From: Lignipirellula cremea
GTDB taxonomy: Bacteria > Planctomycetota > Planctomycetia > Pirellulales > Pirellulaceae
Length of the DNA stretch: 64,000 bases
Direction: 5' to 3'
Assembly (NCBI RefSeq): GCF_007751035.1
Contig: NZ_CP036433.1
Span: 4,507,001 to 4,571,000, forward strand
Positions 2,027 to 36,107 of the stretch are shown here, piece after piece (the first letter of the stretch is position 1; every line of letters starts with the position of its first letter). The position numbers and the translations under genes are program-made. The notes under the pieces were generated by a model. That model saw nothing but the letters and a program-made list of their open reading frames with translations. It ran no database searches and was not told the DNA's origin.

Positions 2027-2336
2027 GGTTGCCTGTTGCTCCAAAGATCGAAGGGCGACCTTATCGGCCGCCGGCGGTCGTGATGCAGGAGAAGGGGGAA
2101 ACGATAACGCTTGCCAGCAGGGGAGACGATGGCTCCCCGCGGAAAATGGCCGGCGATACGTTGAACTTCAGGGTTATCAGGGTGTGGGATACACGCCCGG
2201 CAGATGTCTGGAAACGCCTTGCGGCGCCGCCGGTCTGCGGTCAACTGTTGTATTCCTTTTTCGAGTGTGATACAAGTCACCGGAGCGTCAGGGGACCGGC
2301 GTTAAGTTTCGACGGTAAAAGCAATTGGGCCAATAA
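2027..2336. other. Divergent intergenic region, no gene seen
   Basis: This 310-bp stretch separates the divergent cupin and DUF4432 genes and should hold both promoters. A TTGTAT near 2248, 17 nt, then TACAAG pattern could serve the plus-strand gene, but the -35 match is weak. Open frames here have no protein-like composition. No riboswitch or operator was recognised. Confidence 0.4.
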
Positions 2337-3491: not shown

Positions 3492-3535
3492 GGAAAGGCG
3501 TCCCTCGTAGACCTCGCCCCAGATCCCTCCTCATC

Positions 3536-3630
3536 CCCGTAGTGGATCTGGCCGCAGATCCCTCCGCATCGTTGACCTGGCCGCGATGTATCGCGGAAGA
3601 AAAGGGACTTCTGGCCAGGTCCACTACGGG
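3536..3630. repeat. Long imperfect inverted repeat between convergent genes
   Basis: Arms at 3536-3562 and 3604-3630 are near-complementary over 27 bp; each begins CCCGTAGTGGA and contains CTGGCC when read toward the centre. A perfect palindrome, CCGCGAT GT ATCGCGG, sits inside at 3581-3596. A partial direct copy of the left arm precedes it near 3508-3530. It lies between the convergent DUF4432 and RNase D genes, so it could act as a bidirectional terminator or be a dispersed intergenic repeat. Confidence 0.65.
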
Positions 3631-3676
3631 AAAGTGGGCTGCCAGGTCATCCTGATTTTTAGCGATGATGTGCCGC

Positions 3677-4855
3677 TTACGACTGTCGCGGTTCAAAGGC
3701 CAGGGGCTGTTCACTGTTCGGGTTGACGACAGCGATGACCAGCTTGCCGGACAGAAGGTCGGCGATCTTGTTGCCGACAACTTCGGCTCTCCAGCCGGTC
3801 GACAGCGAGGGCTTCTCCCCTTTTTCTTTATTCAGCAAACTGGCGACCAGTTCGCGCACGTCCTGGCCGGAGCCGACCAGCGAAGGGGCGATCTGGGCGT
3901 CGCGACAGATGCTGCTGAGAGCCGAAGCCAGAAACTGGCCAAGCAGGTTGTGCTGGCGACTGGACTGCGACTGGATCCGCGACGGCAAGTCGGCCTCGGG
4001 CAGGTTCATGGCCCGGTCGACCGCAGAGCCGAGGTCGTCCAGGTGGCGCTGCAGGCCGCTGCGCTCCATGCCGCGGACGGCGCGGATCCGTTTGACGTCG
4101 CTCGTCTGGCGACGTGCCAGCTCAATGATGAGGTCGTCGCGCAAGATCCGTTTGGGAGGGCTGTTGCGGGCCTGCGCCTCTTCTTCGCGCCATTGCCACA
4201 GCTCGCGGACAATCGCCAGGGCGCGGCGTCCCAGACCGGAAATGCCAGAGACCCGGCGCCAACGTTGCTGGGCTTCTGCTTCGATAATGTCGTTCTGCCA
4301 ACGCGTCATTTCGTCAAGGAACCAGGAACGGCGATCCAGCTCGTCGAGCTTACCCAGCAGCTGGTCGCGAATGGCGGCCAGATAGATGACATCCTGCAGG
4401 GCGTACTCCATCTGCCGATCGGTCAGAGGACGCCGGCGCCAGTCGGTGCGGGTTTCTCCTTTGGGGAGCGTTTTTCCCAGCAGCTTGTGGATCAGCGTGC
4501 CGTAAGCGGCCGGATATTCCAGACCAATCATGCCCGCCGCCAGCTGCACGTCGATCAGTTGCGGCGGCGGGGCCTGCACGGCCTGCAGGCAAAAACGGAG
4601 CTCTTCGCGTCCCGCATGGACGATCGTTTGCCGCGGAAAGGCCGCCAGCGTTTCCCAGAAAAGAGTCACGTCCTCACAAGCTTTGGGGTCAATCACCGCC
4701 AGCGCGTCGCCAGCGGCGACCTGGATCAGGCACAAATCAGGGCGATAGGTGTCCTCAGAAATAAATTCCGTGTCAAAGGCAATGAATTCCGCCTGGGCCA
4801 ATCGGGCGCAGTAATCCTGAAGTTGCGAATCCGATGTAATATGCTCGTACTGCAC
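3677..4855 (-). CDS. rnd: Ribonuclease D (DEDD exonuclease with HRDC domain)
   Basis: About 392 aa, close to the usual RNase D length of roughly 375. It is a 3'-5' exoribonuclease acting in tRNA and stable RNA 3' maturation. The N-terminal DEDD domain shows AFDTEF (D28, E30), the Exo II-like IVHAGREEL at 79-86 and the Exo III YALQD (Y151, D155). An HRDC domain follows at roughly 215-290. In the Exo II motif the usual Asp is Glu (E85). I start at the GTG at 4855; a TTG at 4984 would add a Cys-rich, non-domain 43-residue extension. The gene is divergent from ispG and convergent with DUF4432. Confidence 0.88.
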   Translation of the reverse strand: MQYEHITSDSQLQDYCARLAQAEFIAFDTEFISEDTYRPDLCLIQVAAGDALAVIDPKACEDVTLFWETLAAFPRQTIVHAGREELRFCLQAVQAPPPQLIDVQLAAGMIGLEYPAAYGTLIHKLLGKTLPKGETRTDWRRRPLTDRQMEYALQDVIYLAAIRDQLLGKLDELDRRSWFLDEMTRWQNDIIEAEAQQRWRRVSGISGLGRRALAIVRELWQWREEEAQARNSPPKRILRDDLIIELARRQTSDVKRIRAVRGMERSGLQRHLDDLGSAVDRAMNLPEADLPSRIQSQSSRQHNLLGQFLASALSSICRDAQIAPSLVGSGQDVRELVASLLNKEKGEKPSLSTGWRAEVVGNKIADLLSGKLVIAVVNPNSEQPLAFEPRQS

Positions 4856-5046
4856 GCTGGCACAATTCCGCTGGAAGAGTTGGGGGGCGGCAAGCCTTTG
4901 CCGCAGGGGGTGTTGAATTTTGGATTCTAAATCAAAACGCGCGCAGGCGCAATCGCAAAATTGGGTGAAACGCCGTATATTCAAAGGGAGACACGGACGC
5001 GCATTCTTAGATCCCCTTTTCCGCAGGATTTGTAAAGGAGCCCCCT

Positions 5047-6195
5047 GTGCAGTTGACGCGGAATCCCACCCGTTCAGTTCGCATCGGTTCGATCACTATC
5101 GGCGCTGGTCATCCCATCGCCGTACAAAGCATGACGGCGACGCACACGCAGGATGTCGCGGCGACCGTTGATCTGGTCAATTTGCTGGTGGAGGCAGGCG
5201 CCGATGTGGTGCGGATCGCCGTCGACAGCAAAAAAGACGCCGACGCCCTGGCCGAAATCCGCCGACAGACCACAGCCAATCTGTCGGTCGACCTGCAGGA
5301 AAACTATCGCCTGGCGGAGCTGGTGGCGCCGCACGTCGACAAGATCCGCTACAACCCGGGGCATTTGTACCACCACGAAAAAGAAAAACCGTGGCGGGAA
5401 AAGGTCAAATACCTGGTCGATGTGGCCCTGGCCAATGACTGCGCCATGCGCGTCGGCGTCAATTGTGGCAGCGTGGATCCGGCCAAAAAAGCAAAGTTTG
5501 ACGAACGCGATTCGCTCTCGCCCATGCTGGAAAGCGCCCTGGATCATTGCGAATACCTCGATTCCCTGGGCTTCACGCGGTACTGCGTTTCGCTGAAAGA
5601 TTCTGATCCTCGCCAGGTGATTGAAGTCAACCAGCGGTTTGCCGAGCAGCGTCCCGATGTGCCGTTGCATCTGGGCGTGACCGAGGCCGGTATCCCGCCG
5701 GACGGCGTGATTAAAACACGCATCGCCTTTGAGCAGCTCATCAGCCGCGGCATCGGCGACACGATCCGCGTGTCGCTGACGGTGCCCAACTCTCGCAAGC
5801 CGGAAGAGATCGAAGCCGGCCGGAAGATCCTGGCCGATATCGCCGCGGGGCGCGTCCGGTCCGTCGTCGATTATGGGCTGTCGACCTTGAATATCATCGC
5901 CTGTCCCAGCTGTTCCCGGGTGGAGAATGAGGCGTTTATCGAACTGGCCGAGCAGGTCAAAGAGATGACCCGATATGCGCAGGATCACCAGTTGACCATC
6001 GCGGTGATGGGTTGCCGCGTGAATGGTCCCGGCGAAACCGACGACGCCGACCTGGGCCTGTGGTGCGGCCCCACGCATGTGAACCTGAAGCGGGGCGGCG
6101 AACCGATTGGCGCTTTCCCCTACGATGAGATTCTGGGCCGTTTGAAGCAGGAACTCGACGCTTTGATTGCCCAGCAAAGCCCGGCCGCCAGTTAA
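5047..6195 (+). CDS. ispG: 4-hydroxy-3-methylbut-2-en-1-yl diphosphate synthase (IspG/GcpE)
   Basis: 382 aa, the compact bacterial form without the large plant-type insert. It carries out the penultimate step of the MEP isoprenoid pathway, converting MEcPP to HMBPP in the cytoplasm with a [4Fe-4S] cluster. The cluster ligands are visible: C286 and C289 in [12 protein letters not shown]323 in [10 protein letters not shown], and the acidic ligand E330. The N-terminus shows the conserved [10 protein letters not shown]. The start is a GTG at 5047, supported by AGGAG a few bases upstream. A sizeable gap separates it from dnaK, so the two are probably transcribed independently. Confidence 0.96.
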
Positions 6196-6505
6196 GGCTG
6201 CGGGCTGCTGGCCGGGGGCAGGAAAACCGTCAGGCTGTCAAATTGGCAGCTGGGGAATCGTCCTTCCGTGGGGAAAAACACCGCAAATCCCCGTAAATAA
6301 TGGGGGGTTGTCCAGTTTTTCGCCGCTGCTGGCCTTATTGGCGCGCTCTTTGCTTCTTAGTTGAGACCTTGTTTTCCTGACATTGAAATGTATCGAATGC
6401 GCTTGCCCGTTGTGACGGGGCGCGGGGCGGCTTGCGTTAAAGAAGAACGCATCGCTTCCATTTTTATTCATACAAATCCGCCCTATTGCTTAGAAGGAGG
6501 CTCCC
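6196..6505. other. dnaK upstream region
   Basis: This 310-bp stretch has no convincing gene. It should contain the dnaK promoter. I looked for a CIRCE element (TTAGCACTC and its inverse) and saw none, nor a clear sigma-32-type promoter. The only certain signal is the strong AAGGAGG ribosome-binding site just before the dnaK ATG. Confidence 0.5.
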
Positions 6506-8431
6506 ATGGCACAAGGCGAAAAAATTATTGGAATCGACCTGGGAACCACGAACTCGGTGGTCTCGGTGATGGAAGGTTCCGAACCGAAAATTATCCCCAA
6601 CGCGGAAGGGAATCGCATTACGCCTAGCGTGGTGGCGTTCACCGAAAAAGGGGAGATCCTCGTCGGCGAACCTGCCCGGCGCCAGGCCGTCACCAACCCC
6701 ACGCGGACCGTGTACTCGGTCAAGCGGTTCATGGGGCGACGGCATAGCGAAGTGCAGAACGAAGAAAAAATGGTCCCGTACAAGGTCGTTGGCGGCGACA
6801 ACGACTACGTCAAGATCCAGGTTGGCGACAAAGAGTACACGCCGCAGGAGATTTCCGCCCGCATTTTGATGAAGCTGAAAGAAGCGGCTGAAAAATACCT
6901 TGGCCACAAGGTCAACAAGGCCGTGATCACCGTACCTGCGTACTTCAACGACGCCCAGCGCCAGGCGACCAAAGACGCCGGCCAGATCGCCGGTCTGGAA
7001 GTTTCGCGTATCATCAATGAGCCGACCGCGGCCGCCATGGCGTACGGTCTGGACAAAGATCAGTCCGAGAAGAAGATCATCGTCTTCGACCTGGGCGGCG
7101 GTACGTTCGACGTCTCCGTGCTGAACGTGGTTGTCGATGAGGACAACATGCGCACCTTCGAGGTGATCAGCACGTCGGGCGACACCCACCTGGGCGGCGA
7201 TGACTTCGACGAAGAGCTGATCAACTACGTGGCCGACCAGTTCAAAAAAGACCACGGCGTGGATCTGCGGAAAGACACCATGGCTTTGCAGCGTCTGCAG
7301 GAGGCGTGTGAAAAAGCCAAGAAAGAACTGTCGACCCTGCCGCAGACCGACATCAACCTGCCGTTTATCACGGCCGACGCCAGCGGGCCGAAGCACCTGC
7401 AGGTGTCGATCAGCCGCTCCAAGTTTGAAGAGCTGATCGATCCGCTGATTGAGCGGTGCCGTAAGCCCGTCATGCGAGCGCTGGATGACGCCAAGCTGAA
7501 GCCGAGCGACATCCAGGAGGTGGTGCTGGTGGGCGGGTCCACCCGGATTCCGAAAGTCCAGCAGGTCGTCAAGGCGATCTTCAACCGCGACCCTCACCAG
7601 GGCGTCAACCCGGACGAAGTCGTCGCCGCCGGCGCCGCCGTGCAGGGCAGCGTGCTCTCGGGCGACCGGAAAGACGTGCTGCTCCTGGACGTGACGCCGC
7701 TTACCCTCGGTATCGAGACCGAAGGCGGCCGCTTTACTCCTTTGGTGGAGCGGAACACCACGATCCCCGCTTCACGCAAGAACGCGTTCAGCACGGCCGC
7801 CGACAACCAGACCGGTGTCACCGTGGTGGTTTACCAGGGCGAACGTCCGATCGCACGGGAGAACCGGCTGCTCGACCAGTTTGAGCTGCAGGGAATTCCG
7901 CCGGCCCCGCGAGGCGTGCCGCAAATCGAAGTCAAATTCGACATCGACGCGAACGGCATTTTGAATGTTTCCGCCAAAGATCTCGGCACCAACAAGGAAG
8001 CCTCGGTCGAAATCAAGCAGTCGTCGGGTCTCTCGAAAGAGGAGATCGAACGGATGCAGTCCGATGCGGAATCGCATGCCGAAGAGGACAAGCGGAAGCT
8101 GGAATTGATCGAAGTCCGCAACCAGGCAGACCAGATGGTCTACCAGTTAGAGAAGACGATCAAGGAACATTCCGACAAGCTGAAAGACTCCGACAAGGAG
8201 CCTCTCAACAAGGCGATCGAGAAGGTCCGCGAAGCAGCCAAAGGCGAAGACGCCGGCGCCATCAAGTCGGCGATTGAAGAGCTGGAGCAGGCTTCGCACG
8301 CCTTTAGCAAAGTGATCTATGAGAAAGCCGGCGCCGCCGGAGCGACCCCTGGCGAAGAAGGGGCCGAGCCCGGCCCGGCCGCCAGTTCCGACGACGATGC
8401 GATCGACGCGGAATTTGAAGTGAAAGAGTAA
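6506..8431 (+). CDS. dnaK: Molecular chaperone DnaK (Hsp70)
   Basis: 641 aa, full-length Hsp70. The nucleotide-binding domain (about 1-380) carries [10 protein letters not shown] at the start, the phosphate loop [13 protein letters not shown] and [11 protein letters not shown]. The conserved linker [16 protein letters not shown] leads into the substrate-binding beta domain and helical lid, ending in a short acidic tail (DAEFEVKE). It folds nascent and stressed proteins with DnaJ and GrpE, neither of which is next to it here. A strong AAGGAGG precedes the ATG and a clean terminator follows, so it is probably a single-gene transcription unit. Confidence 0.98.
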
Positions 8432-24158: not shown

Positions 24159-25175
24159 ATGCGATGTTCGTACTTGCGCTGTTTGCCGTTGCTGCTGTTG
24201 GTGATGTTGGCTTCCTCCTCCCGTTCACTGCGGGCCGCAGAACCGGGGGCCGTCACCCTGGTGGAAGTAAAGCGGATCTGGGACAAGGCTCCGCATAATG
24301 CCTTTACGGATCTGATTCGTTTCCAGGATCGCTGGTACTGCGTGTTCCGCGAAGGCAGCGCCCATGTTTCGCCCGATGGCGCCTTGCGCGTGTTGACGTC
24401 GGTCGATGGCGATACCTGGGAGTCGGCCGCGCTGATTACGTCGGAAAACTCTGACCTGCGCGACGCCAAGATTACCGTTACGCCCGCGGGTCAGCTGATG
24501 CTGGCCGGAGCGGAAGCCATCAACAAGCCGACGACCCATCGGCATCAATCGCTGGTCTGGTTCTCTGACGACGGCAAAACGTGGAGCCGGAAACATGAAA
24601 TCGGCGACCCCGATAACTGGCTCTGGCGGCTTACCTGGCACAAAGGCGAAGCGTACGGTTTTGGTTACGGTTGCAAGCCCGATAACCGCGGCATTCGCCT
24701 GTTCCATAGCGAGAACGGCAAGTCGTATGAAACCGTCTCCGACCAGCCGGCCGAGAATGGCGCCTACCCGAACGAATCGGCGCTTCTGTTCCTGCCCGAC
24801 GACACTTGCTACTGTCTGCTGCGACAGGATGCAAAGCCCGACAAGGGGCTGATTGGCGAGTCGCATCCGCCTTATTCCGACTGGAGCTGGAAGACGCTGC
24901 CGGTCCGTATTGGCGGGCCGCAAATGCTCCAGCTGCCCGACGGTCGTTTCCTGGCGACGGTTCGCCTTTACGATGCTCCGCGGCGGACTTCGGTTTGCTG
25001 GCTCGACCCCAAAACGGGCGACTTGACCGAGGCTCTCAAATTGCCTTCCGGGGGCGATACCAGCTATGCGGGCATGGTCTGGCACGATAACCTGTTGTGG
25101 ATCAGCTATTATTCTTCGCACGAAGGGAAGACCGCCATCTACCTGGCCAAGGTGAAGGTTCCATTGAACCCGTAA
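24159..25175 (+). CDS. Secreted sialidase-like (BNR) beta-propeller protein
   Basis: 338 aa with a signal peptide (LRCLPLLLLVMLASSSRSLRA, cleavage near AAE). Asp-box/BNR-type turns recur: SVDGDTWES, SDDGKTWSR and SENGKSYET, each preceded by a beta strand, as in exo-alpha-sialidase-like proteins. Whether the catalytic Arg triad, Tyr and Glu are present cannot be settled by eye. It is the first gene of the accessory metabolic cluster and could release or bind sugars outside the cytoplasm. A non-catalytic propeller is the alternative. Confidence 0.75.
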   Translation: MRCSYLRCLPLLLLVMLASSSRSLRAAEPGAVTLVEVKRIWDKAPHNAFTDLIRFQDRWYCVFREGSAHVSPDGALRVLTSVDGDTWESAALITSENSDLRDAKITVTPAGQLMLAGAEAINKPTTHRHQSLVWFSDDGKTWSRKHEIGDPDNWLWRLTWHKGEAYGFGYGCKPDNRGIRLFHSENGKSYETVSDQPAENGAYPNESALLFLPDDTCYCLLRQDAKPDKGLIGESHPPYSDWSWKTLPVRIGGPQMLQLPDGRFLATVRLYDAPRRTSVCWLDPKTGDLTEALKLPSGGDTSYAGMVWHDNLLWISYYSSHEGKTAIYLAKVKVPLNP

Positions 25176-25292
25176 CGACGGCGCTCCTCTCGGTTTTTGT
25201 GGGAAGTAATTGGATGCGATGGGCTCTTGCCGATGCTGCTCCCCCTGACGGTTTGCAAACGCATTTCGTGGTTCTGGTAGTTCGACTTGCAG

Positions 25293-26036
25293 ATGATGGA
25301 ATCGACGCAGAGTTGTCTGGGCGATCTCGAAACGATCGCCGCAGAATATGAACGCCACGGCGTGGTGCGACTGCCGGGCCTGCTTTCCCCTGACGAAGTC
25401 CGCGAGTTCCGCGCCGAGCTGGAGCGTTACCAGCTTGAGGACTTGCCCTCGCGCCCGGCCGACGCTTGCACCTGGGAGCCAGGCGGCAAGGTGGTTCGCA
25501 ATTTGTGGCGGCTGGAGCAGCATCATCCGGCTTTCTGTCGGCGTCTGGTGCGTCCTGCAATTACCACCCTGGCGGCCCGATTGACGCGTGGCGAGCCGGT
25601 GCTGGCTGCGGTGGAAACGTTCAACAAGCCGGCCCGCGTCGGCACGGCCGTGCCGTTTCATCAGGACAACGCCTATTTCTGCCAGGCGCCGCCCGACATG
25701 CTGACCCTCTGGATCGCCCTGGATCCGGTGACGGAAGCGAACGGACCGGTGATCTATCTGCCTGGTTCACACCAGGCCGGCGTCTTGCCGACCCGCCCAT
25801 CCGGCGTAAGCGGCAACTCGATGGTGCTGGCGGATCCGCCTGTCATGTCGGACCGGAGTTCGCTGGTCGGGCTGCTGGAGCCGGGCGACGCATTGGTGCA
25901 TCATTGCCAGACCATTCATCGTTCCGACCCCAACCGGAGCGGACAGCCTCGCAAGGCGTTGCTGATGGTCTACCGGGGCGCTCACACGCAAACCGATCCC
26001 GTGCTCAAAGCAGCTTATGATGCGGCCAGAAGTTGA
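25293..26036 (+). CDS. Phytanoyl-CoA dioxygenase (PhyH) family oxygenase
   Basis: About 247 aa. It fits the non-haem Fe(II)/2-oxoglutarate PhyH family: the iron triad is visible as HQD in VPFHQDNAYFC and the distal His in LVHHCQTIHRSD, with RKALLMVYRG supplying the 2-oxoglutarate-binding Arg. GPVIYLPGSH is the usual family segment. It probably hydroxylates a small molecule made or used by the neighbouring enzymes. Start taken at ATG 25293 (a second ATG follows directly); the TTG at 25287 is less likely. The next gene starts about 30 bp after its stop, suggesting co-transcription. Confidence 0.88.
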   Translation: MMESTQSCLGDLETIAAEYERHGVVRLPGLLSPDEVREFRAELERYQLEDLPSRPADACTWEPGGKVVRNLWRLEQHHPAFCRRLVRPAITTLAARLTRGEPVLAAVETFNKPARVGTAVPFHQDNAYFCQAPPDMLTLWIALDPVTEANGPVIYLPGSHQAGVLPTRPSGVSGNSMVLADPPVMSDRSSLVGLLEPGDALVHHCQTIHRSDPNRSGQPRKALLMVYRGAHTQTDPVLKAAYDAARS

Positions 26037-26065
26037 CGACGCCCGGACTGCAGTAAAGGAATTGT

Positions 26066-28429
26066 GTGGAAAAGAAACCAGCAGCCGGGCTGCGTGACTT
26101 TGCGGATCCAGGCCGCTGGAAGTTCACGCCGGAAGATCGCACGCTGTTCGAAGCGCAGCTGGCCGACTTTGTGCCGCCCGACGCATTTGACGCCCATGCG
26201 CACTGGTACGACGTGCAGCATCTGCTGCCCGATGATCGGGCCGTGCCGCCCACTCCGGTTGGCTTCCAGGTGATGCAGGACCGGATGCGGTTGTGGATGG
26301 GGGAACGGGTCCACGACAACGGCCTGTACTTTGGCTATCCCACGCGCGGCCTGGATTGCACGGCCGCGAATGCGTACGTCGAGGCCGAACTGCGGCAGCG
26401 GCCCGGCAGTCGCGGGCTGATGCTGATCCGTCCCAGCGACGATTCTGCGGCGGTGGAAGCGGCGCTGGTCGCCGGCGGCTTTGCCGGCTTCAAGGTGTAT
26501 CATCTGTTTGCTTTGCGGGAGGACTCGTTTCATGCCGAGCAGGGCGAGTTTCTCCCCGAGTGGGCCTGGGAGATGGCGCACCAGCGCGGGCTTTGGATCA
26601 CCATGCACATGGTGCTGCCCCAGGCGCTGAGTGACGTCCGTAACCTGGACTACATCCGTCAGCACTGCCGGGCCTGGCCGCATGCGAATCTGGTGCTGGC
26701 GCACGCGGGGCGGGGCTTCAATGCGAACCATACGGTCGCCGCCATCGATCAGCTGCGCGGGATCGAGAACGTCTTTTTTGATACCTCGGCCGTTTGTGAA
26801 CCGGCTGCGTTTGAGGCCATCATGCGGGCCTTTGGAACGACCCGGCTGATGTATGGCAGCGACTTTCCCGTCTCGGAGTTGAATGGCAAGGCGATCTCGG
26901 TCGGCGATGGTTTTATGTGGCTGTACCGGCAGAATGTCGACTGGGAAAGCTGGCCGCATGGCCGGCCGCACCTCGTGGGAATCGAATCGCTGCTGGCCCT
27001 GCAGCAGGCCTGCCGCACGCTGGGCTGGAAGGATCGCGATCTGGAGCGATTGTTCGGCGGGAACGCCCGGGAACTGCTGGGCATTCGTCCGGCGATTGGC
27101 GACGAGAGCGACGAACGACCGCTGGTGCAGCGTCAGTATGAAGAGGCAAAGACCCGCATTCCCGGCGGGGTGCAGCTGCTTTCCAAGCGGCCGGAAATGT
27201 TCGCGCCGGGGCAGTGGCCGGCGTACTACGAGCAAGCGATCGGCTGCGAGGTGATCGACACGTCGGGGCGCCGGTATGTCGATCTGTCGCACAACGGCAT
27301 CTTGTCGTGTCTGCTGGGGTTCGCCGATCCCGATGTCAACGCGGCCGTGATTCGCCGGGTGCATCTGGGTTCGATGGCGACACAGCAAACGTACGACGAA
27401 GTGCGACTGGCTGAACTTCTGACGGAGGTTCACCCCTGGGCCGGCATGGCTCGTTTCACCCGCACCGGCGGCGAAGCGGCGGCCGTGGCGGTGCGGATCG
27501 CGAGGTCGTCGACCGGGCGTGACAAGATCGCCTTCTGTGGTTATCACGGCTGGCACGACTGGTATCTGGCCGCCAACCTGGCCGATCCCGATGCGCTGGC
27601 AGGGCATCTGCTGGCCGGACTTTCCCCACGGGGCGTGCCGGCGGGGCTGGCCGGGAGCGCGTTGCCATTCCACTACAACCGACTGGACGAACTCGATCAG
27701 ATTCTGGCCGACCATGGCGACCAGCTGGCGGCCGTCATCATGGAGCCGACCCGATTTGTCGACCCGGAGCCGGGCTTCCTGGAGGGCGTTCGCGAGCGAG
27801 TGACACAGTCCGGCGCCAGGCTGATCTTCGACGAAATCACCGTCGGCTGGCGGCTCTGCCTGGGCGGAGCCCATCTGCTGTACGGCGTGACGCCGGACCT
27901 TGCTATCTTCGCCAAGGCGATGAGCAACGGATTCGCCATGGGAGCGGTGATCGGCACGGCTGAGACGATGCAGGCGGCGGAAGGCTCGTTCATCTCCAGC
28001 ACCTACTGGACCGAAGGCGTCGGACCGGCCGCCGCAGTGGCGACGATCGAGAAAATGCGGCGCGTCAATCCGCCGCCGCACCTGGCGCCGATCGGCGAAC
28101 TCTATCGCCAGGGCTGGACCCAGCTGGGCGAGCGGCACGGCTTGCCGGCTACGGTGCAAGGTCGTCCGCAGATGGTGCTCGTGGGGTTCGATCATCCGGA
28201 ATCCAGCGCGCTGATGACGCTGTTCACAACACGCATGCTGGACGCCGGATTCCTGGCAGCCGGCGCCTTTCATCCGACGCTCGCTCATCAGCCGCATCAC
28301 GTGGAGCGGGCGCTGGCGGCGGCTGACGGTGTGTTTGCCGAGCTGCGACAGGCCCTCGACCAGGGCGACCTGCTGCAGCGGATCGGGCATCGTCCCCGGC
28401 ATACGGGCTTTGCCCGCCTGACCGACTAA
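26066..28429 (+). CDS. Fusion: amidohydrolase domain + class III (GSAM-like) aminotransferase
   Basis: 787 aa. Residues about 40-378 form an amidohydrolase (metal-dependent TIM-barrel) domain: FDAHAHWYD (H44, H46), WITMHMVLP, LVLAHAGRGF and LMYGSDFPVSE, the last supplying the late Asp. Residues about 390-780 form a class III PLP aminotransferase close to glutamate-1-semialdehyde aminomutase: VDLSHNGILSCLLGF, FCGYHGWHDWY, the cofactor Asp in LIFDEITVGWR and the Schiff-base Lys in AIFAKAMSNGF (about residue 617). A single polypeptide could couple hydrolysis to transamination. Start GTG at 26066 with AAAGGA upstream. The order of action and substrate are unknown. Confidence 0.88.
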   Translation: MEKKPAAGLRDFADPGRWKFTPEDRTLFEAQLADFVPPDAFDAHAHWYDVQHLLPDDRAVPPTPVGFQVMQDRMRLWMGERVHDNGLYFGYPTRGLDCTAANAYVEAELRQRPGSRGLMLIRPSDDSAAVEAALVAGGFAGFKVYHLFALREDSFHAEQGEFLPEWAWEMAHQRGLWITMHMVLPQALSDVRNLDYIRQHCRAWPHANLVLAHAGRGFNANHTVAAIDQLRGIENVFFDTSAVCEPAAFEAIMRAFGTTRLMYGSDFPVSELNGKAISVGDGFMWLYRQNVDWESWPHGRPHLVGIESLLALQQACRTLGWKDRDLERLFGGNARELLGIRPAIGDESDERPLVQRQYEEAKTRIPGGVQLLSKRPEMFAPGQWPAYYEQAIGCEVIDTSGRRYVDLSHNGILSCLLGFADPDVNAAVIRRVHLGSMATQQTYDEVRLAELLTEVHPWAGMARFTRTGGEAAAVAVRIARSSTGRDKIAFCGYHGWHDWYLAANLADPDALAGHLLAGLSPRGVPAGLAGSALPFHYNRLDELDQILADHGDQLAAVIMEPTRFVDPEPGFLEGVRERVTQSGARLIFDEITVGWRLCLGGAHLLYGVTPDLAIFAKAMSNGFAMGAVIGTAETMQAAEGSFISSTYWTEGVGPAAAVATIEKMRRVNPPPHLAPIGELYRQGWTQLGERHGLPATVQGRPQMVLVGFDHPESSALMTLFTTRMLDAGFLAAGAFHPTLAHQPHHVERALAAADGVFAELRQALDQGDLLQRIGHRPRHTGFARLTD

Positions 28430-28471
28430 AAACGAATCCTTTTTCGCAGGCGCCGGCCCGCGGATTCGTTT
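28430..28471 (+). terminator. Hairpin after the fusion gene, possible terminator
   Basis: A perfect 10-bp stem, AAACGAATCC (28430-28439) and GGATTCGTTT (28462-28471), encloses a GC-rich loop. The T-run is short, so termination may be partial. Confidence 0.5.
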
Positions 28472-28535
28472 ATCATTCGTCGGGCCTGTCAGATAAATTA
28501 CCTCGTAACTCCGGTCGGCAAGAGCCAGGCAAACT

Positions 28536-29549
28536 ATGAGTTTTCGGCATCGTGTTTTGATCATCGGGACCGGCTCCATCGGCGTGCGGCATTTGCGCTG
28601 TTTCCAGGCGACAGGGCGTGCGGAAATGTCGATCTGTGAAGCGCTGCCCGATCGACGCCGTGAAGTGGCGGAGCAGTTTGGCGTCGCGCATGCCTGTGCG
28701 GATATCGAAGAGGCGATCCGCGCGGCCCGGCCGACGATGGCGGTCGTCGCTTCGCCGGCGCCGTCGCACATTCCGCTGGCTCTGCAGCTGGCGGAAGCAG
28801 GCGTCCATCTGCTGATTGAGAAACCGCTCAGCCTCACGCTGACCGACGCCGACCGGCTGCTGGCCGTGGTCCAGCAGCGGGGACTGACCGCCGGCGTCGC
28901 CTACTGCTGGCGGTATCATCCGCTGATCGCGGCGGCGCAGCAGTTCCTGGCGTCGCAGCCTTTTGGCCGGGTGCTGGAGATTGTCTGCCAGACGGGGCAG
29001 TGCTTTCCGTTCTATCGGCCCGCCTATCGGGACATTTATTACAACGACCGGGCGACGGGCGGCGGGGCGATCCAGGACGCGCTGACCCACATGCTCAATA
29101 CGGGCGAATGGATCGCCGGCCCGATCCAGCGGCTGGGCGCCGACGCCGGGCATCAACAGCTGGAAGGCGTCACGGTGGAAGATACCGTCCATGTGATTAC
29201 CCGGCAGGGACGCGCCAGCGACGTGATGGGCAGTTATAGTTTGAACCAGTACCAGCCGGCCAACGAGGTCAACTGGTCGATTGTCTGCGAACGCGGCGTG
29301 GTGCGGATCGAAGTCGCCAAGCACCGCTGGATGCAGCAGAACGACCCGGCCGCCGCCTGGGAGATCCACACGATACCGCCGCCTGACCGCGACACCATGT
29401 ACAAAGCCCAGGCCGAAGGTTTTTTGGATGCGGTCGAACAGCAGGCGCCGCCGCGCTGTACGCTGGCGGACGGCCTGCAGACGCTGAGGGTCAACCTGGC
29501 CGTTCTCGCTGCAGTCGACAGCGGCCGCAGCCTGGCCGCGGTGACATGA
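28536..29549 (+). CDS. Gfo/Idh/MocA family NAD(P)-dependent oxidoreductase
   Basis: 337 aa, cytoplasmic, no signal peptide. The N-terminal Rossmann motif LIIGTGSIGVRH and the family signature HLLIEKPLSL are clear; the C-terminal part is the alpha/beta substrate domain, with GGGAIQDALTHMLNTGEW containing the expected Asp and His near the active site. Such enzymes oxidise or reduce hydroxyls of sugars, inositols or sugar acids. It lies between the amidohydrolase-aminotransferase fusion and a secreted hydrolase-like gene, on the same strand, fitting a shared pathway. Confidence 0.9.
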   Translation: MSFRHRVLIIGTGSIGVRHLRCFQATGRAEMSICEALPDRRREVAEQFGVAHACADIEEAIRAARPTMAVVASPAPSHIPLALQLAEAGVHLLIEKPLSLTLTDADRLLAVVQQRGLTAGVAYCWRYHPLIAAAQQFLASQPFGRVLEIVCQTGQCFPFYRPAYRDIYYNDRATGGGAIQDALTHMLNTGEWIAGPIQRLGADAGHQQLEGVTVEDTVHVITRQGRASDVMGSYSLNQYQPANEVNWSIVCERGVVRIEVAKHRWMQQNDPAAAWEIHTIPPPDRDTMYKAQAEGFLDAVEQQAPPRCTLADGLQTLRVNLAVLAAVDSGRSLAAVT

Positions 29550-29675: not shown

Positions 29676-31067
29676 ATGACTTGCCGCCTGCGACTTTATG
29701 GCCTGCTCGCAATCACCTGCTGTTTCCTGCCAGCGAGGTTCGCCCCGGCCGCGGAGCCGATTGCGATCGGCGACCGGCTGGAATTGCTGGTCGACGATTA
29801 TCTGGTGGATTCGCTCCAGGGCGACATTCAGCGAGTAATGATCCGGCCGGAGCCGAAAGAAGTCGTGTTTACGGCGGACGAAGCCTGGGAGGGGAACACC
29901 AGCGGTTATTACACCGTGTTCCAGGACGGCGACCTGTACCGGATGATTTATCGCGGCTGGCAGCATGGCGACAAGGACGACGTCGCGGCCGGCGACAGGC
30001 GGAAAGCGGCCCATCCGGAAACGACCTGCTATGCGGAAAGCAAAGACGGCGTGCACTGGACGAAGCCTGACCTGGGGCTGTTTGAGTATGCAGGTTCCAA
30101 GCAGAACAACATCGTCTGGCTGGGGCCCGGCTCCCATAACTTTACCGCCTTTCGTGATGACAACCCGGCCGCACCAGCGTCGGCCCGTTACAAAGCTCTC
30201 GGCCGCGGCCCAGGCGGGCTCTTTGCGTTTGAATCGCCCGACTGCATCCATTGGAAACAGATCGGGGAAAAGGCAGTAATTACGCATGGCGCGTTCGATT
30301 CGCAGAACCTGGCGTTCTGGGATCAGGATCGGAAAGAATACCGGGCGTACTGGCGGTTCTTCGGGCAAGGGGTGCGGAAGATTCGCACCGCCGTTTCCAA
30401 GAACTTTGTCGACTGGGACCAGGAGGCTGATCTGTCGTACACGCCGGCCGACGAAGGCGAGCATCTGTACACGAACGCTATCCAGAAGTACGCCAGGGCG
30501 CCGCATCTGTTTGTCGGCTTTCCGACCCGTTTTGAGAAGAAGAGCGAACAGGTCGAGCCGATCCTGATCGTCAGTCGCGACGGCGAGAATTTCACCCGCT
30601 ACGCCGAGCCCGTCATCCCGCGGACGGCCCCTCAGGACCGGAACCATAACCGCAGCAACTACATGGTCTGGGGCATCCTGCAGCTGCCTGGCAAGCCGGG
30701 AGAATTGTCCGTCTACGGCACGGAGAACTACTACGAATCGACCCCCGGCCGCCTGCGGCAGTTTGTGTATCGGGTGGATGGATTCGTCGCCCTCCGCGGC
30801 GGAAGCAAGGGCGGCCAGGCAACGTCGCGCCTGTTGACGCAGTCGGGCGACAAGCTGGTGCTGAACTACCAGGCGAAGCAGGGTGGCAGCCTCACGGTGG
30901 AAGTGTTGGATGCGGCGGGCAAGGTCGTCGGCAAATCGCAACCGCTCACCGGCGACGCGACGGCGGCGACGGTCGTCTGGCAGCAACAGCCGAAGCTGGG
31001 CCAGGGTGCGCTGCAGCTGCGTTTCCATCTGCAGGACGCCGATCTGTACTCGTTCCGGTTTCAGTAG
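29676..31067 (+). CDS. Secreted glycoside-hydrolase-like beta-propeller protein
   Basis: 463 aa with a signal peptide (LYGLLAITCCFLPARFAPA). The mature protein starts with IAIGDRLELLVDDYLVDS, and has a propeller-like series of strands (YYTVFQDGDLYRMIYRGW, CYAESKDGVHWTKPDLGLF, FESPDCIHWKQIGEK) like five-bladed glycosidases and related planctomycete exoproteins. The last 90 residues form a separate beta-sandwich-like end (GGSLTVEVLDAAGKVVG). Catalytic residues are not certain. It probably processes or binds a sugar polymer feeding the cluster. Confidence 0.7.
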   Translation: MTCRLRLYGLLAITCCFLPARFAPAAEPIAIGDRLELLVDDYLVDSLQGDIQRVMIRPEPKEVVFTADEAWEGNTSGYYTVFQDGDLYRMIYRGWQHGDKDDVAAGDRRKAAHPETTCYAESKDGVHWTKPDLGLFEYAGSKQNNIVWLGPGSHNFTAFRDDNPAAPASARYKALGRGPGGLFAFESPDCIHWKQIGEKAVITHGAFDSQNLAFWDQDRKEYRAYWRFFGQGVRKIRTAVSKNFVDWDQEADLSYTPADEGEHLYTNAIQKYARAPHLFVGFPTRFEKKSEQVEPILIVSRDGENFTRYAEPVIPRTAPQDRNHNRSNYMVWGILQLPGKPGELSVYGTENYYESTPGRLRQFVYRVDGFVALRGGSKGGQATSRLLTQSGDKLVLNYQAKQGGSLTVEVLDAAGKVVGKSQPLTGDATAATVVWQQQPKLGQGALQLRFHLQDADLYSFRFQ

Positions 31068-31161: not shown

Positions 31162-31965
31162 ATGACTGCTGAACCGACGGTTACTGAACTCTTCAATCTG
31201 CAGGGCCGGGTCGCCCTGGTGACCGGTGCGGCCGGGTATCTGGGGACGGCGTTCGCCACGGCTTTGGCCGAGGCCGGCGCCAGCGTGGTGGTCGCCTCCA
31301 GCAGTGACCGCGACCGGGCCCAGGCACTGGCGGATCGCTTGCCGTCGCCGCACGGGGCGTCGCATTTCAGCGTACTGCTGGACCAGATGGAAGAAGCCTC
31401 GTGCGAGTCCGGCTTTGCCGCCGCGGTCGAGCAGGCCGGCAGGGTCGACATTCTGGTCAATAACGGACACGAAGGTTGCGGTCGTGATCTGACCCAGGTG
31501 ACGCATGCGGAGTTTGCCCGGCATCAGCAGAACAACGCCGGCTACTTCGTGCTGGCCCGTCTGCTGCATGCTCACGTGACGGCGGCTGGTCGGGCTGGCA
31601 GCGTGATCCTGGTCGGTTCCATGTACGGTCAGGTCGGCTCTTATCCCGACACGTACGACGGCGTGTGCGCTGCGAGTCCTGTGTCGTACCATGCGCTCAA
31701 AGGCGGCGTGATTCATATGACGCGGCACCTGGCCGTGTACTGGGCGAAGGACGGCGTGCGGGTCAACTGCCTCAGTCCGGGCCCGTTTCCCAACGGGGAA
31801 AAAGTCGCGCCGGAACTGGTCCGCCGACTGAATAAGAAAAGCCCGATGGGGCGGATGGGATCGCCGCATGAACTGAAAGGCGCCCTGCTGTTTCTCGCCA
31901 GCGACGCTGCGAGTTATGTAACCGGACAGAACCTGACCGTCGACGGCGGCTGGACTGCCTGGTAA
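31162..31965 (+). CDS. Short-chain dehydrogenase/reductase (SDR)
   Basis: 267 aa classical SDR. It has the cofactor motif TGAAGYLG (21-28), a variant of NNAG as VNNGH, and a catalytic set S153, Y176 and K180 (in VSYHALKGG). The Ser-to-Tyr spacing is about 23, longer than the usual 13, because of an insert MYGQVGSYPDTYDG. The end PDG-type C-terminus VTGQNLTVDGGWTAW is standard. It probably oxidises or reduces a sugar-derived carbonyl with NAD(P). It precedes the symporter gene by about 60 bp on the same strand. Confidence 0.9.
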   Translation: MTAEPTVTELFNLQGRVALVTGAAGYLGTAFATALAEAGASVVVASSSDRDRAQALADRLPSPHGASHFSVLLDQMEEASCESGFAAAVEQAGRVDILVNNGHEGCGRDLTQVTHAEFARHQQNNAGYFVLARLLHAHVTAAGRAGSVILVGSMYGQVGSYPDTYDGVCAASPVSYHALKGGVIHMTRHLAVYWAKDGVRVNCLSPGPFPNGEKVAPELVRRLNKKSPMGRMGSPHELKGALLFLASDAASYVTGQNLTVDGGWTAW

Positions 31966-32023
31966 GTTGCCGCCCTGATTCGATTCGCCCGGCGATCTGT
32001 GTCTTTTGAAAGTATCTGGAACG

Positions 32024-34510
32024 ATGGAAACCTTTGTAGTGTGGGGCCAAACTCCGGCGCCGGAAGCGGCCGTGATGGGGCTGACCGTATTGGACTGGAT
32101 CGTCGTTGCCTGCTACGCGCTGGGAACGTTGTTGCTGGGCTGGTATTTCGGCAGGAACCAGAAGTCGACCAAAGAGTATTTCGTGGGTTCGGGATCGATG
32201 AACTCGATTTTGATCGGCGTGTCGCTGTTCGCCACGCTGCTGAGCACGATCTCTTATCTGTCGATGCCCGGCGAGGCGATTGGCAAGGGGCCGGTCTGGC
32301 TGGTCACGCTGCTGGGCTACCCGATCATTTATCTGGTGGCGGGCTATGTGCTGTTGCCCATTTATATGCGGCATCGGGTGACCAGCGCCTATGAGCTGTT
32401 AGAGCAGAAACTGGGACGAGGGACGCGGCGGCTGGGGGCTGCGCTGTTTATTGTGCTACGGCTGGCGTGGATGTCGACGCTGATCTATTTTGCGGCCGAA
32501 GCGCTGGCCCTGATCATCGGCGTGAACGACGAGTGGGAGCCGCTGATTGTACTCATCACGGGGATGATCGCGGTCGGCTATACGTCGCTGGGCGGTTTAC
32601 GGGCGGTCGTCATTACGGACTTTGCCCAGACGGTGCTGTTGTACGGCGGGGCGTTGCTGGTGATTGTGGTGGTGTCGTTTCACATGGGCGGCCTGCAATG
32701 GTTCCCGGCCGAGTGGCACGCCAACTGGGATGAACAGCCGCTGTTCAGCTTTGACCCTTCGGTCCGCGTCACGGTGGTCGGCGCGCTACTCACCATGACG
32801 ATCTGGCATGTCTGCACTCTGGGCGGCGATCAGACTTCGGTGCAGCGATTCATGGCGACAGCGGATCTGAAAGCGGCCCGCCGCTCGCTGGCCGCCAATC
32901 TGACCGTGGGGGCCGTCGTGCTGACAACGTTGTTCCTGGCCGGCTTTGCGCTATTGGGTTACTACCAGGCGTTTCCTGAGGCTCTGGGCCAGGGACTCTC
33001 GCTGGAGAAAAACGCCGACAAAATCTTCCCGCACTTTATCGCCACCGGTTTCCCGCCTGCGGTCAGCGGGCTGGTCGTTTCGGCCCTGCTGGCGGCCGCT
33101 ATGTCGAGCGTGGACTCGGGCGTCAACTCGATCACCGCAGTGGTGATGTCGGACTTTCTACCGCCGGCTGATGAAGAAGCAGGCGAGGCCGTCCGTAGCG
33201 GCCTGAAGCCGAGCCACGATCTGGGCGCCAGGCAGCAACGCCGGTTCCGCCAGGCGCGATTGCTGGCGTTTGCTATCGGGGCGCTGGTCGTCGCGACCAG
33301 CTGGCTGGTGAAATATGTGCCGGGGAACATCACCGACACGACCATGAAGACCGTCAACCTGCTGACGGTTCCGATCTTCTGCCTGTTCTTTTTCGCCCTG
33401 TTTGTCAAAATCGCTAAACCTGTCGGCGTCTGGCTGGGGTGCGTGGTGGGCATTATCGTGGCGGTGCTGACGGCCTATTCGGGCCCCATTTTTGGCTACC
33501 TGGTTGTTTTAGATTCGGCTTCCGACCCGATCAGGGATCCCGTCAGTATGATCTGGATGTCGCCGGCGACGTTGGCGGCGAACCTTCTGGTGGGCTGGCT
33601 GGCTTGCCGTTTTTTGCCTGATCGCGAGACATTCGCCGGTCGCATGTGGAGTTACACGCCAGCCGTGCTGGCGGTTGTCTTCGTGGTGGGACTGGCGACC
33701 TGGTGGCGGCCGGCGCCGCGGATCCAGCTGACGGAAGCGAACCGGGACAAGTGCCTGGAGGTGCTGCGGGCAGGGCTGGCGTCGGACGAATTCTGGCCCT
33801 CGATGCACGCGGCGGAAGGACTCACGGTCGGCGGCCAGGGGGACGAGGTCCGCGAGAAACTGGAGCCTCGACTGGAAGAACCGCTCGACGACCAGCAGCG
33901 CTGCGGCGTGGCGCGGGAGCTGGTGAGAGCGGGCGACGAAGAGAAGCTGCCAATCCTGTTCAACATTCTTGAAGGGGAAGAAGACTTCGGCCGGGTGCAT
34001 GCGGCCGAAAGCCTGTTCAAAGTGCATCCGACCGGCGACGCTCCCGCCCTCCGCGCGGCGATGAAACCAACGCAGCCTGACGCCGTTCGTCGAATGGCGG
34101 CCGGAGCACTGGCCAGGGCGCACGATCCGGCCGCCCTGGCGTACCTTCGCGAGTGCATGCTGCAGCCGGAACCGGAGACCTTCCAAATCGCTGCCTGGAT
34201 TCTGGGCCGCACAGGCGGCGGAAAAAAAGATATCGCCCTGCTGAAAAGCCGGCTGCCCGATGCTCCGACCCCCTTGATCAGGGCGTACCTGCAGCATTCG
34301 CTGGCCACGCTGGGAGACGAGGAAGGGATGGCGGCCCTGCTGCAGAACCTGGACAGCGACGATCCCAAGGTGCGAACTTACGCCGCGACGTTTGCCGGCG
34401 ACGCTGGCGACCTGGCGGCAGCCCCCAAATTGTTGAAAATGCTCGACGACCCGGATCTTGACGCACGCATTCGAGCAGCCCAGTCGCTGCTCCGTCTGGC
34501 CCGCCGGTAG
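32024..34510 (+). CDS. Sodium:solute symporter with C-terminal HEAT-like repeat extension
   Basis: 828 aa. Residues about 20-570 are a sodium:solute symporter (SSS) with 13 or so hydrophobic helices; family segments include FGRNQKSTKEYFVGSGSMN, SLFATLLSTISYLSMPGEAIGKG and AAAMSSVDSGVNSITAV. After the last membrane helix, residues about 580-828 form alpha-helical HEAT-like repeats (RVHAAESLFKVHP, DAVRRMAAGALARAHDP, VRTYAATFAGDAGDLAAAP, ARIRAAQSLLRLARR). The repeats should face the cytoplasm if the helix count is odd. Start is the ATG at 32024 rather than a TTG 18 nt earlier. It likely imports the cluster's substrate. Confidence 0.9.
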   Translation: METFVVWGQTPAPEAAVMGLTVLDWIVVACYALGTLLLGWYFGRNQKSTKEYFVGSGSMNSILIGVSLFATLLSTISYLSMPGEAIGKGPVWLVTLLGYPIIYLVAGYVLLPIYMRHRVTSAYELLEQKLGRGTRRLGAALFIVLRLAWMSTLIYFAAEALALIIGVNDEWEPLIVLITGMIAVGYTSLGGLRAVVITDFAQTVLLYGGALLVIVVVSFHMGGLQWFPAEWHANWDEQPLFSFDPSVRVTVVGALLTMTIWHVCTLGGDQTSVQRFMATADLKAARRSLAANLTVGAVVLTTLFLAGFALLGYYQAFPEALGQGLSLEKNADKIFPHFIATGFPPAVSGLVVSALLAAAMSSVDSGVNSITAVVMSDFLPPADEEAGEAVRSGLKPSHDLGARQQRRFRQARLLAFAIGALVVATSWLVKYVPGNITDTTMKTVNLLTVPIFCLFFFALFVKIAKPVGVWLGCVVGIIVAVLTAYSGPIFGYLVVLDSASDPIRDPVSMIWMSPATLAANLLVGWLACRFLPDRETFAGRMWSYTPAVLAVVFVVGLATWWRPAPRIQLTEANRDKCLEVLRAGLASDEFWPSMHAAEGLTVGGQGDEVREKLEPRLEEPLDDQQRCGVARELVRAGDEEKLPILFNILEGEEDFGRVHAAESLFKVHPTGDAPALRAAMKPTQPDAVRRMAAGALARAHDPAALAYLRECMLQPEPETFQIAAWILGRTGGGKKDIALLKSRLPDAPTPLIRAYLQHSLATLGDEEGMAALLQNLDSDDPKVRTYAATFAGDAGDLAAAPKLLKMLDDPDLDARIRAAQSLLRLARR

Positions 34511-34533: not shown

Positions 34534-35304
34534 ATGCGAAAAAGTAAAACGGTGGCCCGCTTCGCCCAGGGCGAAGTGGTGCGCGTGTGCAACCTGGGCC
34601 ATTTCATCCCTTCCTATGTCGCGCATGCGGCCCGCGCCGGGTACGATTGCATCTGGCTCGATCTGGAGCACAGGGCGATGAGCACGCGCGAGGTCCAGGC
34701 GATTCTGGTGCAGTGTCATCTCTACGATATCGATTGTCTGCTGCGTCCGCCCACGCTGGAAAAAACCCGTTTGTACCGTTACCTGGAAGACGGCGCCGCG
34801 GGGCTGATGATCCCGCACGTTTCGACCGTGGAGATGGCGCAGCAGCTGGTGGCGGCCGTCAAGTTCCCGCCGGTCGGCAACCGCGGGCTGGATAACGCCG
34901 GGCTCGACAGCGACTACCTGGCCAGCTACGACCATATGGCCTACACCCAGGCGGCCAACGCCGAAACCTTTTTGACGGTGCAGATCGAAACGCCCGAAGC
35001 GGTCGAAAACTGCGAGGCCATTATTGCCCTGGAAGGCGTCGATGCGGTCTTTGTCGGCCCTGGCGATCTGGGTTTCCGGCTGGCTCTGGCCGGCGACAAG
35101 ACCGGCGCTCAGCTGGAAAGTGCGATTGAGAAAGTCGCCGCCGCCTGTGCGAAATACGGCAAGGCATGGGGCTGTCCCGCGAGTACGCCCGACATGCTGA
35201 AGCGGCGTCGCGAACAGGGAGCCCAGCTGCTCTGCAATTTCGGCGAGTTTGTCTGTCTGATGCAAGGCCTGGCGAACGCGTCCCAGGCCTTCGACGCACT
35301 CTAA
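34534..35304 (+). CDS. HpcH/HpaI aldolase/citrate lyase family protein
   Basis: 256 aa. The TIM-barrel class II pyruvate aldolase family is shown by YDCIWLDLEHRAMS, GLMIPHVSTVEMAQQLV, TVQIETPEAVEN (metal-binding Glu) and DAVFVGPGDLGF (metal-binding Asp). Such enzymes split or join pyruvate or related oxo-acids and aldehydes, often at the end of sugar-acid or aromatic breakdown. It starts about 23 bp after the symporter gene and is followed 8 bp later by an SDR gene, strong evidence for one operon. Confidence 0.9.
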   Translation: MRKSKTVARFAQGEVVRVCNLGHFIPSYVAHAARAGYDCIWLDLEHRAMSTREVQAILVQCHLYDIDCLLRPPTLEKTRLYRYLEDGAAGLMIPHVSTVEMAQQLVAAVKFPPVGNRGLDNAGLDSDYLASYDHMAYTQAANAETFLTVQIETPEAVENCEAIIALEGVDAVFVGPGDLGFRLALAGDKTGAQLESAIEKVAAACAKYGKAWGCPASTPDMLKRRREQGAQLLCNFGEFVCLMQGLANASQAFDAL

Positions 35305-35312
35305 GGAAAGTT

Positions 35313-36107
35313 ATGAACAACACAACTGGAAAACTGGCCGGCAAGACGGCGCTGGTCACCGGCGGCGGCCGCGGCATTGGACTCGGCTGCGCGCTGGAAC
35401 TGGCGGGACAGGGAGCGCGGATCTTTTTGAACGATCGACCCGGCAGCCCGGAACTGGCCGGCGCGGTCGAGCAGGTTCGCGAACGGGGCGGCGAATGCCA
35501 GGGAGTGGAAGCCGACGTGTTCACCCGGGAAGGCTGTGAGCAGCTGGTGGCTGCGGTCGACCGGATCGATATTCTGGTCAGCAATCCGGCGTTCAGCCGG
35601 CGGGGGGACTTTGTCGATTACCCCACCGACCTGTTTGAGAAAACGCTGCAGGGGACGCTGCTCAGCGGTTTTCACCTGGGCCAGCTGACCGCTCGTCGGA
35701 TGATCCAGCAGGGCGGCGGCGGTAAAATGGTGTTCATCTCCAGCGTGCATGGGCAACTCCCGCTCGCCAGGGCGATCGCCTACAACGCGGCCAAAGCGGG
35801 ACTCGATCACATGGTGCAGTCGATGGCGGTGGAGCTGATGGCTCACCGGATCAACGTCAACGCGATCGCGCCCGGCTGGATCGACACGCCGGGCGAACGG
35901 GCCACCTTTCCGGCCGAGCTGATCGAGTCGGAAGGGAAGCTGCTCCCCTGGGGCCGGCTGGGTCTGCCGGCTGAGATCGGCAAGACGGCCCTGTTTTTGG
36001 TATCGGACGACGCCTCGTACATCACCGGCGTGATCCTGCCAGTTGACGGCGGCTTCCGCTTCCGCGACTGCCTGCCTTCGGCCCTGCCCAAACCGGCGGA
36101 TTATTGA
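35313..36107 (+). CDS. Short-chain dehydrogenase/reductase (SDR)
   Basis: 264 aa classical SDR: cofactor motif TGGGRGIG (16-23), catalytic S144, Y157 and K161 at the normal spacing, and the C-terminal ITGVILPVDGGFRF. The expected NNAG is here ILVSNPAF, a variant. The ATG at 35313 follows AAGGAAAG. It is the last gene of the plus-strand cluster and starts 8 bp after the aldolase gene, so the two are almost certainly co-translated from one mRNA. Probably dehydrogenates a sugar-derived intermediate. Confidence 0.92.
   Translation: MNNTTGKLAGKTALVTGGGRGIGLGCALELAGQGARIFLNDRPGSPELAGAVEQVRERGGECQGVEADVFTREGCEQLVAAVDRIDILVSNPAFSRRGDFVDYPTDLFEKTLQGTLLSGFHLGQLTARRMIQQGGGGKMVFISSVHGQLPLARAIAYNAAKAGLDHMVQSMAVELMAHRINVNAIAPGWIDTPGERATFPAELIESEGKLLPWGRLGLPAEIGKTALFLVSDDASYITGVILPVDGGFRFRDCLPSALPKPADY

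Follow-up and report, generated by a model that had tools for sequence, protein, structure and literature searches.

The DNA analysed here, which we call the window, is a 64,000-nt stretch of the Lignipirellula cremea genome (GCF_007751035.1, contig NZ_CP036433.1, positions 4,507,001 to 4,571,000 of the forward strand), and the host genome is a single 9.57-Mb contig that is 99.99% complete. We found nine genes in succession between positions 24159 and 36107, all on the plus strand and separated by gaps of roughly 8-126 nt (Table 1). One of them encodes an N-terminal amidohydrolase-superfamily (AH) domain and a C-terminal aminotransferase (AT) domain, and no internal stop was found on reading its frame. 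The promoter scan found no more promoter-like sites than in shuffled sequences (2 versus a mean of 2.1), and the terminator scan found 19 terminator-like sites versus a shuffle mean of 10.5. Antisense to the fusion gene lies a 940-codon open frame (26015..28837, minus strand), which is probably no gene but a side effect of codon use at high G+C.

Table 1. Features of the fusion gene and of its neighbours in the window.
Feature	Position	Strand	Basis or remark
Secreted sialidase-like (BNR) beta-propeller protein	24159..25175	+	PF13088, E 4e-4, below cutoff
PhyH-type Fe(II)/2-oxoglutarate dioxygenase	25287..26036	+	Pfam; near 9/38 fusions
Shine-Dalgarno-like AAAGGA	26055..26060	+	5 nt 5' of fusion-gene GTG
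AH-AT fusion gene	26066..28429	+	Single 787-aa ORF, GTG start, both Pfam domains
Amidohydrolase-superfamily domain, N-terminal, residues 22-338	26129..27079	+	Pfam, domain model, fold matches
H44-x-H46 metal motif	26195..26203	+	Invariant in 38/38 fusions
K143, candidate site residue of hydrolase half	26492-26494	+	Invariant in 38/38 fusions
H181, candidate site residue of hydrolase half	26606-26608	+	Invariant in 38/38 fusions
H213, candidate site residue of hydrolase half	26702-26704	+	Invariant in 38/38 fusions
D266, late catalytic Asp of hydrolase half	26861..26863	+	Invariant in 38/38 fusions
Inter-domain linker, short, about residues 339-350	27080..27115	+	pLDDT dips to 57
Class III (fold type I) PLP aminotransferase domain, residues 351-780	27116..28405	+	Pfam, full model, fold matches
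D589, PLP pyridine-nitrogen Asp	27830..27832	+	Invariant in 38/38 fusions; aligned with HemL
K617, PLP Schiff-base Lys	27914..27916	+	Invariant in 38/38 fusions; aligned with HemL
Gfo/Idh/MocA sugar oxidoreductase	28536..29549	+	Pfam; recurrent neighbour
Secreted propeller-like protein without Pfam match	29676..31067	+	Common near fusions
SDR dehydrogenase	31162..31965	+	Pfam, NCBIfam; recurrent neighbour
Sodium:solute symporter with C-terminal HEAT repeats	32006..34510	+	Pfam
HpaI/RhmA-type metal-dependent pyruvate aldolase (2-keto-3-deoxy acid aldolase family)	34534..35304	+	Pfam, NCBIfam; near 9/38 fusions
Second SDR	35313..36107	+	Pfam; likely ATG at 35313

The sole PDB match of the first propeller was P. 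aeruginosa PA2794, a weak match (E 4e-4) that may reflect the Asp-boxes only. PA2794 is listed as a pseudaminidase (PMC2716378) and is said to seem to cleave pseudaminic acids (PMC3658417), and the likeness of the propeller to it is suggestive but weak. For the second propeller-like protein the PDB search returned chance matches only. The HEAT repeats of the symporter appear to be a shuffled partner: they are C-terminal in the window, related repeats are N-terminal in L016, L017 and L109, and a separate HEAT gene adjoins the symporter gene in L021, L031 and L034 (L029 is also listed in this comparison).

A preliminary description of this DNA had proposed that an amidohydrolase and an aminotransferase related to glutamate-1-semialdehyde aminomutase (GSAM) are joined in one uninterrupted frame carrying HxH, late-Asp and PLP-Lys motifs. 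Pfam searches bore this out, placing Amidohydro_2 (PF04909) at residues 42-340 (E 3.7e-14, 53.6 bits, gathering cutoff 26.4) and Aminotran_3 (PF00202) at residues 385-734 (E 1.1e-35, 123.6 bits, cutoff 30.5) of the 787-aa protein, and the motifs correspond to H44/H46, D266 and K617. The full-length structure was modelled confidently as two domains (pLDDT 88.5, pTM 0.85). Our scan of genomes from bacteria and archaea yielded 80 loci with more than 30 full-length fusions among them, spread over about nine phyla (Planctomycetota, Verrucomicrobiota, Lentisphaerota, Bacteroidota, Spirochaetota, Armatimonadota, Hydrogenedentota, Acidobacteriota and Bacillota), the genomes being mostly metagenome bins whose phylum labels may be wrong. 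Four genomes come from cultured strains: Pleomorphovibrio marinus, two of Membranihabitans marinus, and Chitinophaga alhagiae. The distribution is patchy: of 297 genomes sampled from the order to which the window belongs, 11, that of the window included, carry a full-length stop-free fusion.

The preliminary description had itself named two findings that would count against a working fusion, confinement to this genome by a misread stop codon and a domain lacking key catalytic residues, and neither was seen. We aligned 38 distinct uninterrupted fusions from these phyla, four cultured isolates included, and found H44, H46, K143, H181, H213, D266, D589 and K617 invariant in all of them. The complete single-contig genome and the uninterrupted recurrence in many genomes therefore indicate that the fusion is real, and we rejected an annotation or assembly artefact or chance as its source. 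That the frame is such an artefact, or that one half is dead, found no support in our results and has a practically negligible probability. A literature search that covered few subscription journals did not find the fusion, and neither did a search on GSAM-like aminotransferases in nonulosonic-acid work. Both domains were already known, and their combination is new relative to the literature searched.

The hydrolase half is, judged by sequence, a divergent member of PF04909, and no close relative was found among solved structures. Its domain model (pLDDT 91) has the hallmarks of the amidohydrolase superfamily, namely the (beta/alpha) barrel, HxH, H181, H213 and the late Asp D266. The best fold match was the COG3618 protein 4dlf (Z 21.5, 3.0 A over 245 residues), followed by IDCase decarboxylases (Z 20.6) and the PDC-lactonase-like 2ffi (Z 20.3), and by this modelling the three are practically tied, within about 1 Z. 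L-fucono-1,5-lactonase and the COG3618 lactonases (4dlf, 2ffi) share the Pfam family with this half and are among its best folds, but they show 20% identity or less to it, and its score lies far below curated cutoffs. The weak NCBIfam match to L-fucono-1,5-lactonase itself (NF052480) scored 19.9 bits against a cutoff of 400 and covered only 27 residues. The label "amidohydrolase" thus holds for the superfamily but misleads if read literally, since the fold resembles lactonases and decarboxylases. Characterised PF04909 enzymes are mostly lactonases, decarboxylases and hydratases, and few are known to cleave amides.

Hydrolysis by this half is accordingly only a prediction, because IDCase decarboxylases and enzymes of other PF04909 activities rank level with the lactonases by fold. 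The first domain might instead be a decarboxylase, hydratase or isomerase, so that the fusion would join two pathway steps that are not necessarily consecutive and only fix their stoichiometry. IDCase lies close to the best match, and LigJ hydratase and the dihydroxybenzoate and ACMSD decarboxylases score about 1-3 Z below it; the fusion loci, however, hold sugar-type enzymes and no aromatic-catabolism set, and we consider this possibility unlikely. Two loci bear on the choice of bond. In L039 and L113, whose unfused aminotransferase branches in the same part of the AT tree as that of the window, a separate PF04909 gene lies between the AT and HpaI genes; it shows relationship to sulfomuconolactone hydrolase (3e-26) and to fuconolactonase (6e-18). 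Because the hydrolase half seems to have been naturally replaced there by a lactonase-related gene, a lactone is favoured over an N-acyl bond as the target of the first domain, and the lactonase-like folds and the weak fuconolactonase match lean the same way. In L113 (positions 2046-7957), as in L039, genes for a luciferase-like monooxygenase, the lactonase-like PF04909 protein, HpaI and a 2-hydroxyacid dehydrogenase stand in a row, possibly a ketone-to-lactone variant of the route.

For the aminotransferase half, the best NCBIfam matches were GSAM-like models, all far below cutoff (hemL, TIGR00713, 177 versus 527 bits), and a separate true HemL is encoded elsewhere in the genome (614.5 bits). 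The half shares its fold and PLP residues with GSAM at 27-32% identity. It differs in carrying Lys (K374) where HemL has the Arg after PGGV, which we take to be the substrate carboxylate site of GSAM, and this Lys is found in fused and nonulosonic-acid-type aminotransferases alike. We therefore rejected a true GSAM; "GSAM-like" describes the fold and the cofactor residues and does not extend to the enzyme's identity. The best structural match was FumI, the aminopentol aminotransferase of Sphingopyxis sp. MTA144 (PDB 6hbs/6hbv; Z 42.6, 2.0 A over 401 residues), at only about 25% identity, with GSAM structures ranking after it (Z 39.9 or less). FumI is a catabolic class III enzyme that deaminates hydrolysed fumonisin and acts after a hydrolase step (PMC2933618). 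In that system the hydrolase, FumD, is a separate carboxylesterase without the amidohydrolase fold, unlike the fused AH half, and the only FumD-FumI fusion that we found reported is an engineered one (PMC9025740).

The nearest unfused aminotransferases by sequence (48-58% identity) lie in clusters for the biosynthesis of nonulosonic (sialic-acid-like) acids, where they are probably biosynthetic. Among 42 such loci, SpsF was present in 22, NeuB/PseI-like proteins in 19, PseC-like in 18 and PseG-like in 12; the SpsF cytidylyltransferase was confirmed by Pfam, and the other names are our own reading of the sequences. These PRK06209-like enzymes adjoin SpsF or are fused with it, the natural fusions to an SpsF-type cytidylyltransferase being L071:9185-11284 and L114:6519-8648. 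They share the invariant residues of the fused aminotransferases and differ from them in their biosynthetic gene company and in lacking the AH half. In the alignment, none of the positions conserved to at least 85% within both groups differs between fused and nonulosonic-acid aminotransferases, so both sets probably handle a similar amine. Near unfused aminotransferase genes of planctomycete relatives (L115, L120, L122 and L127), a class IV aminotransferase of the branched-chain/D-amino-acid type recurs. A published table of the Legionella Sg6 O-antigen genes (PMC3694923) includes a "glutamate-1-semialdehyde 2,1-aminomutase" flanked by PseG and an acylneuraminate cytidylyltransferase.

We compared the gene company of 38 fusion loci with that of 27 AT-only loci, each of at least 10 kb; the baseline is thus AT-only and not random loci, and the p-values take the sequences as unrelated. 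BNR proteins were found in 13/38 fusion loci versus 1/27 AT-only loci (p 0.005), HpaI and PhyH each in 9/38 versus 0/27 (p 0.008 for both), and the SSS symporter in 8/38 versus 0/27 (p 0.02). NeuB, SpsF and PseC occurred in none of the 38 fusion loci versus 15-17 of the 27 AT-only loci (p below 1e-7), and PseG was likewise absent from all 38. Gfo/Idh, SDR and AKR genes were no commoner near fusions than near AT-only genes, and AKRs from fusion loci share only 26% identity with those from AT-only loci. SusC/SusD-like pairs join in the Bacteroidota, and some fusion loci carry NanA-like or other DHDPS-family lyases. Catabolic markers were absent from 15 of the 38 within the flanks covered, some of which are short. 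Relatives of the BhcC-like 3-hydroxy-D-aspartate aldolase were seen near fusions or split relatives (L117:2593-3801, L109, L112, L027 and L036), often where HpaI is absent. By their gene content, the fusion loci look catabolic.

This comparison bears on whether the fusion might be biosynthetic and aminate a nonulosonic-acid-like sugar, which its unfused homologues likely do. The close kinship of those homologues in SpsF/NeuB/PseC/PseG clusters, their SpsF fusions and the lack of any distinguishing conserved position speak for such a role, but the fusion loci hold importers, secreted propellers and an aldolase in place of these four genes. A biosynthetic role is disfavoured by this gene company and seems improbable.

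In the AH tree, the hydrolase halves of all 40 fusion sequences group in a single clade supported at 87/89 and recovered in 86% of bootstrap trees; standalone AH genes fall outside it, those closest to it having AT genes nearby. The distance matrices of the two halves are correlated (Mantel r 0.87), a value reached in 0 of 2000 permutations. The fusions lie mainly in three groups of the AT tree with a few AT-only genes interspersed, a pattern that one fusion with later losses would seem to explain better than repeated joining. These results are consistent with one ancient joining of genes that lie next to each other in other genomes. L015 looks like a pre-fusion state: its AH and AT genes adjoin in the same frame, parted at the domain boundary by a stop and a short gap, and its hydrolase groups outside the fusion clade. 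Unfused AH and AT genes are also adjacent in L057, L120 and L125, and both occur in one locus in L115, L116, L117 and L122. Fusion together with adjacency of the unfused genes is a classical Rosetta-stone sign of two activities within one process, and with the co-divergence it argues for a functional pair. The hydrolase half is nevertheless dispensable or replaceable, since AT genes within the fusion groups lack it in L037, L042 and L069.

Taken together, we propose that the fusion is a bifunctional catabolic enzyme, hydrolase then aminotransferase, of an operon-like locus for the utilisation of amino sugars or amino-sugar acids, and we give this reading a probability of roughly 0.45. In this pathway, the secreted sialidase-like propellers would free, or otherwise handle, an acidic or amino sugar, which the symporter would import. 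The N-terminal metal-dependent barrel would hydrolyse a lactone (favoured) or an N-acyl bond, yielding a free acid or a free amine, and the C-terminal PLP domain would then transaminate the amino group away to leave a carbonyl compound. Redox steps by Gfo/Idh and SDR enzymes, and in other genomes by AKRs as well, may rearrange this compound, and the HpaI-type aldolase would cut it in a retro-aldol reaction to pyruvate and an aldehyde. The idea of the preliminary description that hydrolysis directly feeds transamination is plausible given the signs of a functional pair and the precedent of fumonisin catabolism, in which the enzymes are separate (PMC2933618), and the intermediate might be channelled between the two sites.

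The same order of steps could also run without a lactone, the first domain deacylating an N-acyl amino sugar and the second removing the freed primary amine. This would be the simplest reason for fusing both steps, because deacylation makes the amine that the aminotransferase needs, and natural nonulosonic acids are N-acylated, with an 8-amino-nonulosonic acid reported from Flexibacter maritimus (PMC3210612). The closest AH folds and weak sequence matches, however, are lactonases and decarboxylases, in a family with few characterised members known to cleave amides, and we regard deacylation as doubtful. In the proposed catabolic pathway the lactone remains the favoured substrate of the first domain.

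On a more specific reading, the fusion would be the hallmark enzyme of a widespread and so far undescribed pathway by which bacteria consume amino-nonulosonic (pseudaminic-like) acids from the surfaces of other bacteria, running the biosynthetic amination in reverse. To our knowledge, how bacterial nonulosonic acids are broken down has been poorly mapped, Neu5Ac excepted. The kinship of the aminotransferases, the sialidase-like neighbours and the 8-amino-nonulosonic acid known from marine Flexibacter (PMC3210612) point in this direction, though we hold it to be rather unlikely. If the proposed catabolic role is right, a gene family that databases would file as a plain amidohydrolase or a GSAM would mark patchily spread catabolic loci among Planctomycetota, Verrucomicrobiota, Bacteroidota and other groups, and would be the natural counterpart of the engineered hydrolase-transaminase fusion used against fumonisin. 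The four cultured-isolate genomes that carry the fusion would open it to experimental test.
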